Shown here piece after piece: positions 58,315 through 64,000 of a DNA stretch of 64,000 nt (positions are counted from its first letter, which is position 1; each line of letters opens with the position of its first letter). The notes under the pieces were generated by a model. It was not told the origin of the DNA and did not search any database. It saw nothing but the letters and a program-made list of their open reading frames with translations. Position numbers and translations under genes: made by a program. This stretch comes from Paenarthrobacter sp. (GTDB taxonomy: Bacteria > Actinomycetota > Actinomycetes > Actinomycetales > Micrococcaceae), in assembly GCA_031179305.1 (NCBI GenBank), contig JAPSHX010000003.1:21955-85954 (forward strand), read 5' to 3'.

Positions 58315-58354
58315 AGCTGGTGCTCCTCAGTCACGCTTGCAGTACGAGTTGTCG

Positions 58355-58443
58355 ATACGCCGAGTAGTCACCTGAGGCACCCCGCCGGAGAGAGGGTTGC
58401 CGACCAGCAAGTCAGGGCTTTGCGCTGGTGCTCATTACTCAAG
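58355..58443 (-). ncRNA. SAM riboswitch (SAM-IV-type) upstream of the metZ operon
   Basis: On the minus strand GAGTAATGAGCACCAGCG...GACTTGCTGGTCGGCAACCCTC...GGCGGGGTGCCTCAGGTGACTACTC matches the actinobacterial SAM-IV pattern (TGAGCGCCAGCG, CTTGCTGGCCGGCAACCCTC, CGGGGTGCCCCGGGTGA). The ends GAGTA and TACTC pair. It should switch off the operon when S-adenosylmethionine is abundant. The class assignment rests on remembered consensus. Confidence 0.88.
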
Positions 58444-58522: not shown

Positions 58523-60229
58523 TCACGCTTTGTCCCTGAGCGCACGGACGGCGGCACCGACTGTGGAGAAGAAGTGGTCCGGCGTGAACCGCGCTGCCGT
58601 TCCGAGGCGGATCAACTTGTCCTTCACAGGGCCTTTGAGTTCGGCGAACACCAGATCCACGCCGTGACGGGCCAGCCATTCATCCAACGTGACAAGGTCG
58701 TCCAAGGCTGTGGTGTCGATCCCGGTGATGGGTTCCGCGGCGAGGATGACGTGGGAGATTTCATCCGACGTTTCGTCCAGTTGCTCCCGGACAAAGCTCG
58801 CAAGGACCTGTCCGTTGCCGAAGAACAGCGGTGCATCGAAGCGGAGGATCAGGAGCCCCGGGATGCGTTCGCCTTCCGGGTGGCGGGCAAGATCGTGGTA
58901 ACCGGGCCGTCCTTCCTGCGAGCCGAGTTCAGTACGATAGGGGTCCCACGCCCGGCGAACGAAGTCCAGGAGTGCCAAGGCAATGGCTACCAGGATTCCC
59001 TGCAGCACACCCACCAAGAGCACCCCCAGGAATGTTGCCAGCATCACCACGGATTCGCTGCGGCTCATGCGCACAAGCCGGCGGACACCTGTGGGATCCG
59101 CCAAGGCAACAGCGGCCGCGATCACCACCGCAGCCAACGTGGAGGAGGGCAGGAACTCGGTGACGCCAGGTGCGAGGAGCATAAAGGCGAGGACCAGAAA
59201 GGCTCCCACAGCGCCAGTTAGTTGCGACTTGGCGCCGGCATCCACCGCCACTGGGGTGCGCGAGGAACTGCCGCAGATCGGGAATCCGCCCAAAACTCCG
59301 GTTGCTGCGTTCGCTGCCCCGAGCGCAGCCATCTCCCTGTTCCCCGATACCCTCCTTCCTTCTTTTGCGGCCAAGGACTGAGACAGCACGCCCGTATCCG
59401 CGAAGGCCATCAGGGCGATTCCGGCAGCAGCCGGCAGCAGCAGGAGCGCGTCCGCCCAAGTGATGCCGCCAAGGGAAGGAGTCGGCAGCCCTTGAGGCAG
59501 TGCCCCGGTGACCTTGACGTCGTCGTTCAGGCCCCAAACTGCGGTGGCGATGCATGAGCCGATCACTGCCAGCAGAACGCCGGGCACCTTCCACTTCAGT
59601 CCCCGCGGGATCCAAATCAGCGCCAGAGAGCCAAGACCCAACAACAACGCCGGAAAGTTGGTGCCACCATTCAGCACTGTTGTGAAAGTGGAAGCCAGTT
59701 TTTCCCAGACGGACTCGCCCTCGGGCTCGATCCCCAGAAAAGCGGGCAGTTGTGACAATCCTACGAACAGCGCCAAGCCGTTCAGGTACCCAAGCCGAAT
59801 GGGCTTGGAGAGCAGGCCTGTGACGGTTCCCAGTTTCAGCGCCGAGCCAGCCAGCATGATGGCTCCAACCAGTACAGCCAGGAGCCCCGCCAGCGCCACC
59901 GACTTTTCGCTGCTACCCGCTGCCAGAGGCACGATCGCTGCGGCAATCATGGGAGCAAGGGCCGAGTCGGGGCCGAGGACCAGGATTCGGGAAGGCCCCA
60001 CCACCGCGTAAACCAGCAGCGGGACCACGGTGGCGTAAAGACCGGTGACGGGTGGAAGGCCAGACGCCTGTGCGTAGGCCATCCCGGCGGGTACCAGCAG
60101 GGCGAACAGCGCAGCACCCGCCACCACATCATGCCGCAGCCATTCGCGTTTGTAGCCCTTGAGCGCCCAAGCGCCCGAAAGCCGGTCCTTGGCGGAAGAC
60201 TTGGGGGAAGAACGGGCGGGTGAACTCAT
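58523..60229 (-). CDS. SulP-family inorganic anion transporter with STAS domain
   Basis: ATG 60229 (MSSPARSSPKSSAKDRLSGAW, 568 aa) has AGGA upstream; the track's 673-aa form includes extra upstream sequence. About ten hydrophobic segments follow (SLC26/SulP fold: VAGAALFALLVPAGMAYAQASGLPPVTGLYATVVPLLVYAVVGPS). GGFPICGSSSRTPVAVDAGAKSQLTG is a conserved core, and the C-terminal STAS domain ends at KGPVKDKLIRLG. It probably imports sulfate or another anion. Adjacent sulfur genes favour sulfate, but bicarbonate is possible. It is divergent from the flavin monooxygenase operon. Confidence 0.88.
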   Translation of the reverse strand: MSSPARSSPKSSAKDRLSGAWALKGYKREWLRHDVVAGAALFALLVPAGMAYAQASGLPPVTGLYATVVPLLVYAVVGPSRILVLGPDSALAPMIAAAIVPLAAGSSEKSVALAGLLAVLVGAIMLAGSALKLGTVTGLLSKPIRLGYLNGLALFVGLSQLPAFLGIEPEGESVWEKLASTFTTVLNGGTNFPALLLGLGSLALIWIPRGLKWKVPGVLLAVIGSCIATAVWGLNDDVKVTGALPQGLPTPSLGGITWADALLLLPAAAGIALMAFADTGVLSQSLAAKEGRRVSGNREMAALGAANAATGVLGGFPICGSSSRTPVAVDAGAKSQLTGAVGAFLVLAFMLLAPGVTEFLPSSTLAAVVIAAAVALADPTGVRRLVRMSRSESVVMLATFLGVLLVGVLQGILVAIALALLDFVRRAWDPYRTELGSQEGRPGYHDLARHPEGERIPGLLILRFDAPLFFGNGQVLASFVREQLDETSDEISHVILAAEPITGIDTTALDDLVTLDEWLARHGVDLVFAELKGPVKDKLIRLGTAARFTPDHFFSTVGAAVRALRDKA

Positions 60230-60382
60230 ACAGCGATCATTCCTGACCCATGCTGTTTGCGGAACAAGGCGGTCGTCGTATGTGGAAATCCAAACCTTCA
60301 TGAGGCCCGCCCAAATGTGACGCCCCGGGAGCATAATTGACGCAGTACGACCCCCTGTAACTTCGCATGAAATCAGGTCGCG

Positions 60383-61711
60383 GTGAACGGACAGAGCAGT
60401 TCTACACTCAAGCCCATGCTGCACTTTGGATGGTTCGTGGGCCACGGTTTTGGTGTCCAGGGCTGGGGGACTCCCGGCTACAGCCTGGGCTACGACTGGA
60501 AGAAACCCGCCCTGTATCAGGATGCTGTCCGGGCCTTTGAGCAATCCGGGTTGGATTTGTTCATCATCGAGGATTCACTCACCGTCCCGGACACTTACGG
60601 CGGCACGGCCGAGGTCTCCCTGGCCCACGCGTCTTTCGCTCCGAAACACGATCCGTTGGCACTGGTTCCGTATCTTCTGTCCGCTACGGAGCACCTTGGA
60701 ATCGTGCCAACGGTCAGCGCTTCCTTCTACCCGCCCTTCACTGCCGCCCGGCTCCTGGCTACGCTGCAACACTTTTCGGAAGGGCAGCTTGGCTGGAATG
60801 TGGTTACGTCCGGCAGCGACCTCGCCGCTCAGAATTATGGGCTGGACCAGCAGATTGAACATGACCTCCGGTACGAGAAAGCGGAGGAATTCGTCGACGT
60901 CGTCAGGCGGCTCTGGCGTAGTTGGGAACCGGGCGCTGTGCTTGAGGACGTTGAGGCGGGAGTGTTCGCGGACCACAACAAGGTGCACCCCATCAACCAT
61001 CAGGGCGACTTCTTCAAGGTCAGGGGGCCGCTGAACACTGCGCCTTTGCCGGAAGAACCCGTGCTGGTGCAGGCCGGAGCTTCTCCCCGGGGCAAGGCGT
61101 TCGCGGGCGGGCATGCTGACGTGGCCATTGCCTTGGCTCGTGGCGTTGACGGTATGAAGTCCTACCGGGATTCGATCCGCGCTGAAGCTGCGAAGGCCGG
61201 CCGCAATCCCGACGACGTCAAGGTACTTTTTGTCCTGAAGCCCACCGTTGTTGGTTCCACGGCCGAGGCAGCGGAGTTGCGGGCACGGAGGCGTGAACTC
61301 ACCCAGCGCGACATCGACAGCCAGCTCAACTCCATCTCCTACCTTTCAGTGATCGACTTCAAACAGTTCGACCTCGACGCTCCGCTGCCGGAGTTGAGCA
61401 CCAACAGCAACCAAGGGACGCTGGAGCATTTCGCCAAGGCCGCCCCTCCGGGTTCCACACTGCGGCAGATCCTGCAGGCGCGCAGCGGGGGAGCGGGTGA
61501 TTCGATCGTTGGTACGGTTGGCGAAATCGCTGACTACCTGGAGTCGACAGGGTCTGAAGTGGGCGGCGACGGTTTCCTGTTTTCCGGCTTCGTGGACCCG
61601 GTGACCGTGCACGGTGTGCTGGACAAACTCACCCCTGAACTGCGGCGGCGCGGCTTGTTGAGGAAGAGTTATGGCAACGGTGGTTTCCGGCAGAATCTCT
61701 TGGACTTCTGA
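60383..61711 (+). CDS. LLM-class flavin-dependent monooxygenase (NtaA/SnaA/DszA family)
   Basis: The 442-aa protein starts at GTG 60383. Stretches such as HLGIVPTVSASFYPPFTAARLLATLQHFSEGQLGWNVVTSGSDLAAQNYG, PINHQGDFFKVRGPLNTAPLPEEPVLVQAGASPRGKAFAGGHADVAI and the C-terminal GGDGFLFSGFVDP are the NtaA/SnaA/DszA monooxygenase signatures. These use FMNH2 from a separate reductase and often break C-N or C-S bonds. It is first of an operon with an aromatic-lyase homologue and a cysteine-synthase-like enzyme (overlaps TGATG and GTGA). An organosulfur substrate is plausible, not shown. Confidence 0.88.
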   Translation: MNGQSSSTLKPMLHFGWFVGHGFGVQGWGTPGYSLGYDWKKPALYQDAVRAFEQSGLDLFIIEDSLTVPDTYGGTAEVSLAHASFAPKHDPLALVPYLLSATEHLGIVPTVSASFYPPFTAARLLATLQHFSEGQLGWNVVTSGSDLAAQNYGLDQQIEHDLRYEKAEEFVDVVRRLWRSWEPGAVLEDVEAGVFADHNKVHPINHQGDFFKVRGPLNTAPLPEEPVLVQAGASPRGKAFAGGHADVAIALARGVDGMKSYRDSIRAEAAKAGRNPDDVKVLFVLKPTVVGSTAEAAELRARRRELTQRDIDSQLNSISYLSVIDFKQFDLDAPLPELSTNSNQGTLEHFAKAAPPGSTLRQILQARSGGAGDSIVGTVGEIADYLESTGSEVGGDGFLFSGFVDPVTVHGVLDKLTPELRRRGLLRKSYGNGGFRQNLLDF

Positions 61712-63276
61712 TGGTGTCCGCTGAACCGCGAACCTTCCTGATCAGCGCGGCTCCGGTGCGGGCGTCGGACGTGGCGCTGGCTGCTGAAGATCCTTCGTTT
61801 CACGTGGAACTCAACCAAGAAGCGTTGTCTTTGATGGCTCGGTCGAGGGAAATAGTGGAGCTCACAGCGGCCTCCGGGAAGCGTGTGTACGGGCTCAACA
61901 CCCTGCTTGGATCAGGCCGGGATACGGCTGTGGAGGAGAAGTCGCTTCTGGCGTATCAGGTACAGGTGGTCCGATATCACAACAGTGGTGTGGGCGCGTA
62001 TTTGGACCGGGCTGCTGCCCGAGCCGTACTCCTCGCCCGGCTTATCGGTTTCAGCCGTGGTGGTTCCGGCGTGCGACCCGAAACGGCGGGCTTCTATGTC
62101 GAAATGCTCAACCGTGGGATCTTCCCCGCCATCCCTCGGGAAGGGTCAGTGGGCTCATCGGACCTGACCCAACTTGCCGCCGTCGCGGCCGTGGCCTTGG
62201 GAGAGGGCGAAGCATTCAACGCAGACGGCACGCTGATCCCCGGTGCCAAAGCGCTCGCCGACGCCGGGCTCCAGCCACTTGTTCTCGCGCCGGGCGAGGC
62301 CCTGGCCCTTGTCAGTGCCAACGCGTACTCGGTGGGCGTAGGAACCCTCGCCTTGGTGCAGTTGCAGCACCTGGCCGAACTGGCCGACGTCGCACTTTCC
62401 CTCTCCCTGGAGACGATCGCAAGGTACGACGGCGGCGGAAACCTCAGCCCGTTCTCGCCGCCAATTCAAGCGGCCAAGGCGGTTGACGGGCAGCGGGAGT
62501 CGGCTGCTGCTGTTCGCCGCCTCCTTAACGGTGGTTGGTTGGAGAACGTTCGTTCGGAAGTATCGGTGCAGGATGCGTTATCGTTTCGGGCGGCGCCTCA
62601 GACGCACGGGGCATTTCGATCCCTGGTGAAGCAGCTCGGTGCTGCGTTGGAAGTGGAGTTGAACGGCCGCGGAGACAATCCCCTGGTCGATGTCGAATCC
62701 GGGCAGATGGTGTCCGGCGGTAACTTCCAACCGATGCAGCTCGCTCTCGCCTTTGAAGGCCTGAGGCTGGCTTTGGCGCATGTCGGGATTTCCTGTGAGC
62801 GCCGCACCGCCAAGTTGTATCCCCCGCAACGTGCTATCCGGGCCCGCCACCTGCAGGCGGCATCCTCCGGGGAAGCTCTGGCCCAAGAGGAACTTCCCGG
62901 GCTTCTCTGGTACTCGGCCGCCGGGCTGCTGGCCGAGCTCAAGTTTCTGGCCGCGCCGGCGACGCTCGGGGCCCCGACGCTTTCTGCCGATGTCGAGGAC
63001 CATTCGACCCTGGCCCCGCTCGCCCTGCAGCAGCTCGAAAAGTCGTTGGAGGCTGCTGAAAAACTCTTGGTTATCGAGGCGCTGACGGCGTCTTACCTGC
63101 TGCTTGAAGCGGGAGCTTTACAGCCGCTCGGAAGGGGGACGGGCGCCGTCGTGGGACGACTAGCCGATGTGCTTGCCGACCGGCCCGCGGCTCCTGACCT
63201 GGTGGCGCGTGCGCGTGTGGAGTTGCGGGATGCCGTGACCCGGGAATTTTCGGAGACATGGGAGGAAACGTGGTGA
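61711..63276 (+). CDS. Aromatic amino acid lyase (HAL/PAL) family protein lacking the Ala-Ser-Gly MIO triad
   Basis: The 521-aa protein has the family's landmarks: YGLNTLLGSGRD, RGGSGVRPE, VQDALSFRAAPQTHGAFRSL, GRGDNPLVD and SGGNFQPMQLAL. At the place where histidine and phenylalanine ammonia-lyases carry G-A-S-G-D-L for MIO cofactor formation, this protein reads VGSSDLTQLA, one residue shorter and without the triad's Gly. It may be non-MIO, inactive or a different lyase. It overlaps the monooxygenase (TGATG) and the cysteine-synthase-like gene (GTGA), so it is part of one operon. Confidence 0.82.
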   Translation: MVSAEPRTFLISAAPVRASDVALAAEDPSFHVELNQEALSLMARSREIVELTAASGKRVYGLNTLLGSGRDTAVEEKSLLAYQVQVVRYHNSGVGAYLDRAAARAVLLARLIGFSRGGSGVRPETAGFYVEMLNRGIFPAIPREGSVGSSDLTQLAAVAAVALGEGEAFNADGTLIPGAKALADAGLQPLVLAPGEALALVSANAYSVGVGTLALVQLQHLAELADVALSLSLETIARYDGGGNLSPFSPPIQAAKAVDGQRESAAAVRRLLNGGWLENVRSEVSVQDALSFRAAPQTHGAFRSLVKQLGAALEVELNGRGDNPLVDVESGQMVSGGNFQPMQLALAFEGLRLALAHVGISCERRTAKLYPPQRAIRARHLQAASSGEALAQEELPGLLWYSAAGLLAELKFLAAPATLGAPTLSADVEDHSTLAPLALQQLEKSLEAAEKLLVIEALTASYLLLEAGALQPLGRGTGAVVGRLADVLADRPAAPDLVARARVELRDAVTREFSETWEETW

Positions 63277-64000
63277 GTACAGCGATCCGCAAACATGGTG
63301 TTCACGCGGCTGTCCCAACTCCGGACGGGCTGGACGCCTCAGTCCTGGACAAAGTGGGTAACACTCCGCTGGTGAAGTTGGAGGCGCTGGGTCACGGTCT
63401 GGGCAGCACCATCCACGTCAAGCTTGAGTCCGAAAACCCGGGTGGTTCCATCAAGGACCGCACCGCGCTGAGTATGGTTCGGGCGGCGGAAAGGTCTGGC
63501 GAACTGCAACCGGGCGCCACGATTGTGGAAAGTACGTCGGGCAACACCGGGATCGGGCTCGCCCTCATCGGACACCTGACCGGACACCCGGTGGTGGTGG
63601 TTACGGGCGACACGATCTCCCAGGAGAAGCTTGCCGCGCTGCACAACTACGGCGCCCGAGTGATCCTCACGGACTGGAACGCGCCGTCGGAATCGCCGGA
63701 GAACGCACGCGCCGTGGCAGCGCGGATTACCGCCGGGACACCTGGCGCATGGCGACCCATGCAGTTCGATAACCCTGCCAATCCCGCCGCTCACTATGAA
63801 ACCACCGGGCCGGAGATTTGGGAGCAGACAGGTGGTCTGGTTACCCACTTCGTAGCGGGTATCGGCACAGGGGGGACCATCAGCGGGAACGGCCGGTTCT
63901 TGAAGGAAAGCGTGGCTTCCTCGCGGCCAGGTGGGCACGTGGAAGTTGTTGGCGCCGACCCCTATGGCTCTGCCTACAGCGGCGGACATCCCGGCGAGAT
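63273..64000 (+). CDS. Cysteine synthase-like PLP enzyme (3' end beyond window)
   Basis: It starts at GTG 63273 with GGAGG eight bases upstream and is cut by the window end after about 242 codons. It has the OAS-sulfhydrylase/CBS fold: VGNTPLVKLEAL, ESENPGGSIKDRTALSMV (PLP Lys), VESTSGNTGIGLALIG and VAGIGTGGTISGNGRFLKE (phosphate-binding loop). It overlaps the lyase homologue by GTGA, so it is the third gene of the operon. It may capture sulfide released upstream; the true acceptor cannot be seen. Confidence 0.85.
   Translation, partial: MSTAIRKHGVHAAVPTPDGLDASVLDKVGNTPLVKLEALGHGLGSTIHVKLESENPGGSIKDRTALSMVRAAERSGELQPGATIVESTSGNTGIGLALIGHLTGHPVVVVTGDTISQEKLAALHNYGARVILTDWNAPSESPENARAVAARITAGTPGAWRPMQFDNPANPAAHYETTGPEIWEQTGGLVTHFVAGIGTGGTISGNGRFLKESVASSRPGGHVEVVGADPYGSAYSGGHPGE

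Follow-up and report, generated by a model that had tools for sequence, protein, structure and literature searches.

What a flavin monooxygenase, a lyase of the histidine ammonia-lyase (HAL) fold and a pyridoxal phosphate (PLP)-dependent enzyme accomplish together is the question raised by three overlapping genes at the right end of a 64,000-nucleotide stretch of Paenarthrobacter sp. DNA (contig JAPSHX010000003.1, positions 21,955 to 85,954; hereafter the window). Our analysis suggests, with a probability of roughly 40%, that this trio forms an operon dedicated to salvaging sulfur from an ergothioneine-like imidazole compound, which may be ergothioneine, oxidised ergothioneine or a close thiohistidine betaine. 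The genes lie on one strand:

60383..61711, + strand: flavin mononucleotide (FMN)-dependent luciferase-like monooxygenase (LLM) of the NtaA/DmoA type, above the TIGR03860 cut-off; GTG start at 60383, alternative ATG start at 60416 (MLHFGWFVGHG)
61711..63276, + strand: HAL/ergothionase-like lyase of 521 aa without the 4-methylideneimidazole-5-one (MIO) cofactor; motifs GSVG-SSDL, VSANA, QDALSFR and VEDH; AlphaFold2 model
63258..64000, + strand: PLP-dependent beta-replacement enzyme like cystathionine beta-synthase (CBS), without CBS domains; ATG 63258 or GTG 63273, running beyond the window end

The monooxygenase stop (TGA, 61709-61711) overlaps the lyase ATG (61711-61713; TGATG at 61709-61713), and the lyase stop (TGA, 63274-63276) overlaps the start of the PLP gene, be it ATG 63258 or the GTG 63273 that relatives use (GTGA, 63273-63276); overlap at all junctions is what one translationally coupled operon would be expected to show. 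Coordinates and family matches bear out a preliminary description, made from the letters alone, of three overlapping genes for a monooxygenase, a lyase of the HAL/phenylalanine ammonia-lyase family and a PLP enzyme. The window ends at a scaffold gap of 100 N that truncates the PLP gene, the remainder of which extends past the gap to a stop at L004:1516; the 127 bases preceding the gap recur after it, and the gap with this repeat (L004:956-1182) is a joined assembly overlap and no real duplication.

The trio is a real gene unit. Conservation across genomes, proposed in the preliminary description as a check, was indeed found: gene order is the same across the 33 Arthrobacter/Paenarthrobacter loci from genome contigs, the exceptions being L018, in which the PLP gene is divergent, and L011, the contig of which ends before the oxygenase, and the lyase frame is split in two in L037. 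In a second genus (g261; L108-L110) the trio stands at an unrelated site, with identities of 81-84% for the oxygenase, 58-61% for the lyase and 62-63% for the PLP enzyme, and altogether it was found in three genomic settings. Distribution is patchy: of the 398 genomes and 32 genera of the family, 26 and 2, respectively, have the lyase; in an order-wide sample of 297 genomes, the NtaA ortholog occurred in six, all of which (6/6) also carried the lyase. The usual slot lies between the metZ/rhodanese and pabC-like genes and appears as a variable insertion site; the seven trio-free genomes inspected there (7/7) had none of the three genes and held varied unrelated genes instead (L162-L168).

The lyase matches Lyase_aromatic with 365 bits and the HutH profile with 298 bits, far under the cut-off of 539 bits. 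Its early designation as MIO-less was correct: where HutH reads GSVGASGDL, the aligned window lyase reads GSVG-SSDL, so that the MIO-forming triad (A-S-G, with C-S-G and T-S-G as variants) is one residue short, and GSVGS(S/A)DL with the same shortening is kept in all 15 trio lyases aligned, whereas the separate true HutH of the host retains a C-S-G triad. The trio lyase shares with HutH the fold and conserved equivalents of Tyr53, His83, Arg283 and Glu414, and differs from it further by SAN in place of NGT. An identical one-residue deletion (SSIG-EGDI) is present in ergothionase, the ergothioneine trimethylamine-lyase of Treponema denticola, and both enzymes have VSxNA replacing NGT and QDxLSFR replacing QDxYSLR; the window lyase retains VSANA, QDALSFR, Y60, H90 and E429 of EDH. 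Ergothionase (6s7j) is also the top PDB fold match of the lyase model (predicted local distance difference test 87.5, predicted template modelling score 0.90), with template modelling scores of 0.86/0.90, slightly above HAL, and it is described as lacking MIO in a recent paper (PMC13405746). In a tree of 31 lyases that included MIO enzymes, ergothionase and rhizobial MIO-less lyases, the trio lyases held together as one clade (100/100), with the scattered actinobacterial MIO-less lyases (L098-L114) as its sister group and the MIO enzymes elsewhere in the tree. By established MIO chemistry, ammonia should leave poorly without the cofactor, and a better leaving group is therefore inferred for the trio lyase; a betaine-activated alpha-amine would explain the loss of MIO better than an ordinary S-substituted histidine.

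The monooxygenase matches Bac_luciferase and TIGR03860 (NtaA-DmoA; 370 bits against a cut-off of 279.7) in profile searches. Its closest solved chain is the dimethyl-sulfide monooxygenase DmoA (6ak1; 256 bits, about 43% identity across the first 206 aligned residues), followed by DszA/BdsA (5tlc; 234 bits), with EDTA monooxygenase far lower at 140 bits. DmoA, DszA and YxeK are listed among C-S-cleaving flavoenzymes (PMC10863075). Members of the family that cleave C-S bonds are nearest to the trio oxygenase, which is, however, coupled with genes for a lyase and a CBS-like enzyme rather than with acetyltransferase/deacetylase genes, as for the YxeK-CmoJ type, or with dsz genes. Oxygenase homologues on plasmids of Salipiger and Marinibacterium (46-47% identity) stand without a lyase partner. 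No flavin reductase was seen adjacent to the trio in the contexts read, and six are encoded elsewhere in the genome.

The third enzyme matches PALP (197 bits in profile searches), and its best solved relative is the Mycobacterium tuberculosis CBS Rv1077 (298 bits), ahead of cysteine synthases (at most 235 bits); relatives also include SbnA and O-ureidoserine synthase. The first label given to it, cysteine synthase-like, has to be sharpened, the kinship with CBS being closer. It shares the catalytic core, the PLP lysine and GADPxGSxYSGG with Rv1077 but lacks the regulatory CBS domains. The motifs PGGSIKDR, TSGNTG, GTGGTISG and GADPYGSAYSGG are intact, and the PLP lysine and the phosphate/serine-binding motifs are present. 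The full-length PLP protein of L018 missed the curated cut-offs for CBS (356 against 510), CysKM (306 against 344) and CysK (288 against 351). A separate full-length CBS is encoded elsewhere in the genome, beside a cystathionine-metabolism enzyme.

In the sulfur-salvage pathway that we favour, the LLM oxygenase, supplied with FMNH2 by a stand-alone flavin reductase, would first attack the C-S bond of the imidazole compound through a flavin peroxide. The MIO-free lyase would then use acid/base elimination, as in ergothionase, to expel a group that already leaves well, for instance the trimethylamine of a betaine. The CBS-like enzyme would yield cysteine or cystathionine by adding the sulfide or thiol so released to serine or O-acetylserine. 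An imidazole substrate fits the retention in the lyase of the HAL-type H90 and of E429 in EDH. A role in sulfur metabolism is suggested by the C-S-cleaving relatives of the oxygenase and by L018, in which the relocated trio adjoins genes for an SfnB-type oxidoreductase, an MsnO8 LLM, an AhpD-like protein and a TIGR04028 substrate-binding protein; these sulfur-acquisition neighbours are the best independent hint of such a role. Cleavage of an organosulfur amino compound, as proposed in the preliminary description, keeps the support of the conserved trio, of an oxygenase nearest to DmoA/DszA and of the L018 neighbourhood, and loses the argument from SulP and metZ considered below. Coupling of the enzymes is suggested by one case, G1069 (L177, 7790-9460), where the oxygenase alone is cleanly deleted, the promoter repeats are kept before the lyase and the PLP gene is intact. 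The G1069 lyase has His for Tyr60 (the position of HAL Tyr53, invariant in other trio lyases) together with Asp71Glu; coupled decay or a change of substrate would be expected to leave such a picture, and a single case proves little.

Several observations weigh against this interpretation. The same strain retains the lyase and the PLP gene without the oxygenase. The trio lyase clade lies apart from ergothionase and the rhizobial MIO-less lyases, although the ergothionase branch is long and its placement unsure. The IQK/VQK lysine of T. denticola ergothionase and its rhizobial homologues corresponds to Trp400-Tyr401 in the trio lyases, which also carry a 5-residue insertion of their own at 238-242, and beside the trio, genes for an ergothioneine transporter, a urocanase-like protein or a hydantoinase are lacking. 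The trio lyase is 26% identical to ergothionase and, unlike it, is partnered by an LLM oxygenase and a CBS-like enzyme; because of its own clade and the missing QK lysine, we do not claim that it belongs with the ergothionases. As for the source of the compound, of 41 genus genomes, 5 encode EgtD and 10 carry the trio, and one has both; for most hosts this would mean scavenging, not the recycling of a compound made by themselves. Ergothioneine recycling by producers was ruled out on this overlap of one genome.

Routes of ergothioneine breakdown named in PMC13405746 are ergothionase, giving trimethylamine and thiourocanate, thiourocanate desulfhydrase and the ergothioneine-sulfonate pathway of Agrobacterium. 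The preliminary description knew of no pathway with this trio, and our literature searches likewise found no description of the combination. To our knowledge, no LLM oxygenase with a CBS-like enzyme occurs in those ergothioneine routes. Ergothioneine and other organosulfur compounds from fungi and actinobacteria reach soil bacteria, in which aerobic sulfur recovery is poorly known, and a compact operon of three genes is small enough for direct testing. A broader proposition, that MIO-free HAL-like lyases form a wide, mostly unrecognised actinobacterial class and that the trio is also the first aerobic ergothioneine-type salvage using LLM C-S cleavage and a dedicated CBS-like recapture, unlike the routes through ergothionase, thiourocanate and ergothioneine sulfonate, is rather doubtful when both parts are taken together.

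The main rival, somewhat unlikely in its own right, is sulfur salvage from a non-imidazole compound, in which the oxygenase would open a thioether or S-conjugate in the manner of CmoJ or YxeK, the lyase would eliminate across a C-S or C-N bond of an aryl or alkyl fragment, and recapture of the sulfur would fall to the PLP enzyme. The family that unites the oxygenase with YxeK, CmoJ, DszA and DmoA and the sulfur cluster beside the L018 copy would suit this proposal, and a lyase pocket unlike that of ergothionase speaks for it, whereas the retained HAL-type His90 and EDH motif fit an imidazole ring, and the trio contains no N-acetyltransferase or deacetylase of the kind present in the CmoJ and YxeK pathways. 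The S-(2-succino)cysteine (scm/yxe) pathway resembles the trio in that a flavin oxygenase or lyase recovers cysteine from an S-adduct (PMC9706529); it differs in needing N-acetylation and in having no PALP enzyme, and its lyase belongs to the class I lyase family and is not HAL-like, by which the S-(2-succino) lyase was ruled out as the same enzyme.

Nitrogen-compound catabolism is a less probable alternative: hercynine or some other betaine, or an N-alkyl histidine, would be used for carbon or nitrogen, with NtaA-like N-dealkylation by the oxygenase, deamination or an unrelated beta-replacement by the PLP enzyme, and with sulfur incidental. NtaA and EDTA monooxygenases do cleave C-N bonds, and other MIO-less lyases sit with a glycine-betaine ATP-binding cassette (ABC) transporter, a urocanase or an amidohydrolase (L106/L107). 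On the other hand, the oxygenase scores 256 and 234 bits with C-S-cleaving relatives against 140 with EDTA monooxygenase, the third enzyme is of the CBS/cysteine-synthase type with all PLP motifs, and the L018 copy has its sulfur cluster. Most improbable is that the trio is a compact module making a specialised metabolite, in which the PLP enzyme would make diaminopropionate or an S-substituted alanine and the lyase an acrylate, since the relatedness of the PLP enzyme to SbnA and O-ureidoserine synthase and the patchy distribution (26/398) are offset by contexts that nowhere hold carrier-protein, ligase or export genes, by the same chromosomal slot beside housekeeping genes and by the sulfur-acquisition neighbours in L018.

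Upstream of the trio, a set of putative regulatory elements is present:

60338..60370, + strand: tandem direct repeat TGACGCAGTACGA-N7-TAACTTCGCATGA with a 20-bp period, candidate regulator site; same arrangement in Arthrobacter, in L018 and in genus g261
60318-60330, + strand: weaker third repeat copy
60332..60337, + strand: CATAAT, candidate -10; GTTACA-N17-GATAAT stands here in most Arthrobacter loci
60403..60408, + strand: TACACT, another -10 candidate; the repeats lie 32 nt ahead of it and ATG 60416 follows closely; TATAGT in genus g261

The repeats are two 13-bp direct copies with the consensus TRACGN5YGA, and in the copies counted by eye they sit 32 nt upstream of a TACAST/TATAGT hexamer. 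They may act as an operator, behind an upstream promoter, or as a site from which an activator works on the hexamer downstream. Because GTTACA-N17-GATAAT lies directly upstream of the repeats in most Arthrobacter loci, a leaderless start at ATG 60416 is no longer preferred; a consensus promoter was not called in the window copy itself. The monooxygenase start is uncertain between 60383 and 60416, and the choice depends on which role the repeats play. A genome-wide search gave 13 one-mismatch matches in nine genomes, 9 of the 13 at the trio, against five for the reversed control pattern; no wider regulon emerged, the trio promoter accounting for most of the matches.

Two further features lie to the left of the trio:

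58523..60229, - strand: SulP-family transporter with a STAS domain; divergent neighbour, not core; ATG 60229 is its likely start
58328-58439, - strand: S-adenosylmethionine (SAM)-IV riboswitch (RF00634, 78.1 bits); the genes behind it are a small conserved one, rhodanese and metZ

SulP and the metZ operon had been read as consistent with a sulfur theme, but they support it weakly and are no evidence for such a role. SulP is present in 9 of 32 genome-contig trio loci with the upstream side covered, and additionally in the window and two further loci; it is absent from the trio loci of the second genus and, occurring in a minority of loci, was ruled out as a core member. The metZ/rhodanese operon has its own SAM-IV riboswitch and keeps its position in genomes without the trio, which makes it a weak candidate for a functional partner. 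Downstream of the trio, Paenarthrobacter-type genomes carry an AhpD-like gene together with one for an amino-acid permease akin to S-methylmethionine permease.

Many actinobacterial families also have MIO-less HAL-like lyases, beside which no conserved partner stands out (L098-L114), and the trio lyase family would extend MIO-independent elimination beyond ergothionase. A separate MIO-less branch (L106, L107, L117) includes a lyase near a urocanase and an amidohydrolase (L107) and one near a glycine-betaine-type ABC transporter/binding protein (L106), and is a candidate hercynine or ergothioneine degradation cluster; removal of quaternary amines from histidine betaines would fit as a wider role of MIO-less lyases. 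A Paraburkholderia hut-like cluster (L128) was discarded as an ergothionase reference, its lyase retaining A-S-G. Rhizobium plasmids carry MIO-less HAL-like lyases as well (L126, L127, L129). Some such enzymes are publicly named histidine ammonia-lyase, a reaction that is probably impossible without MIO; for example, the L126 lyase bears this annotation beside a CoA-transferase, a short-chain dehydrogenase/reductase, a MaoC dehydratase and a HutC-like repressor, and may be a misannotated member of a further pathway.

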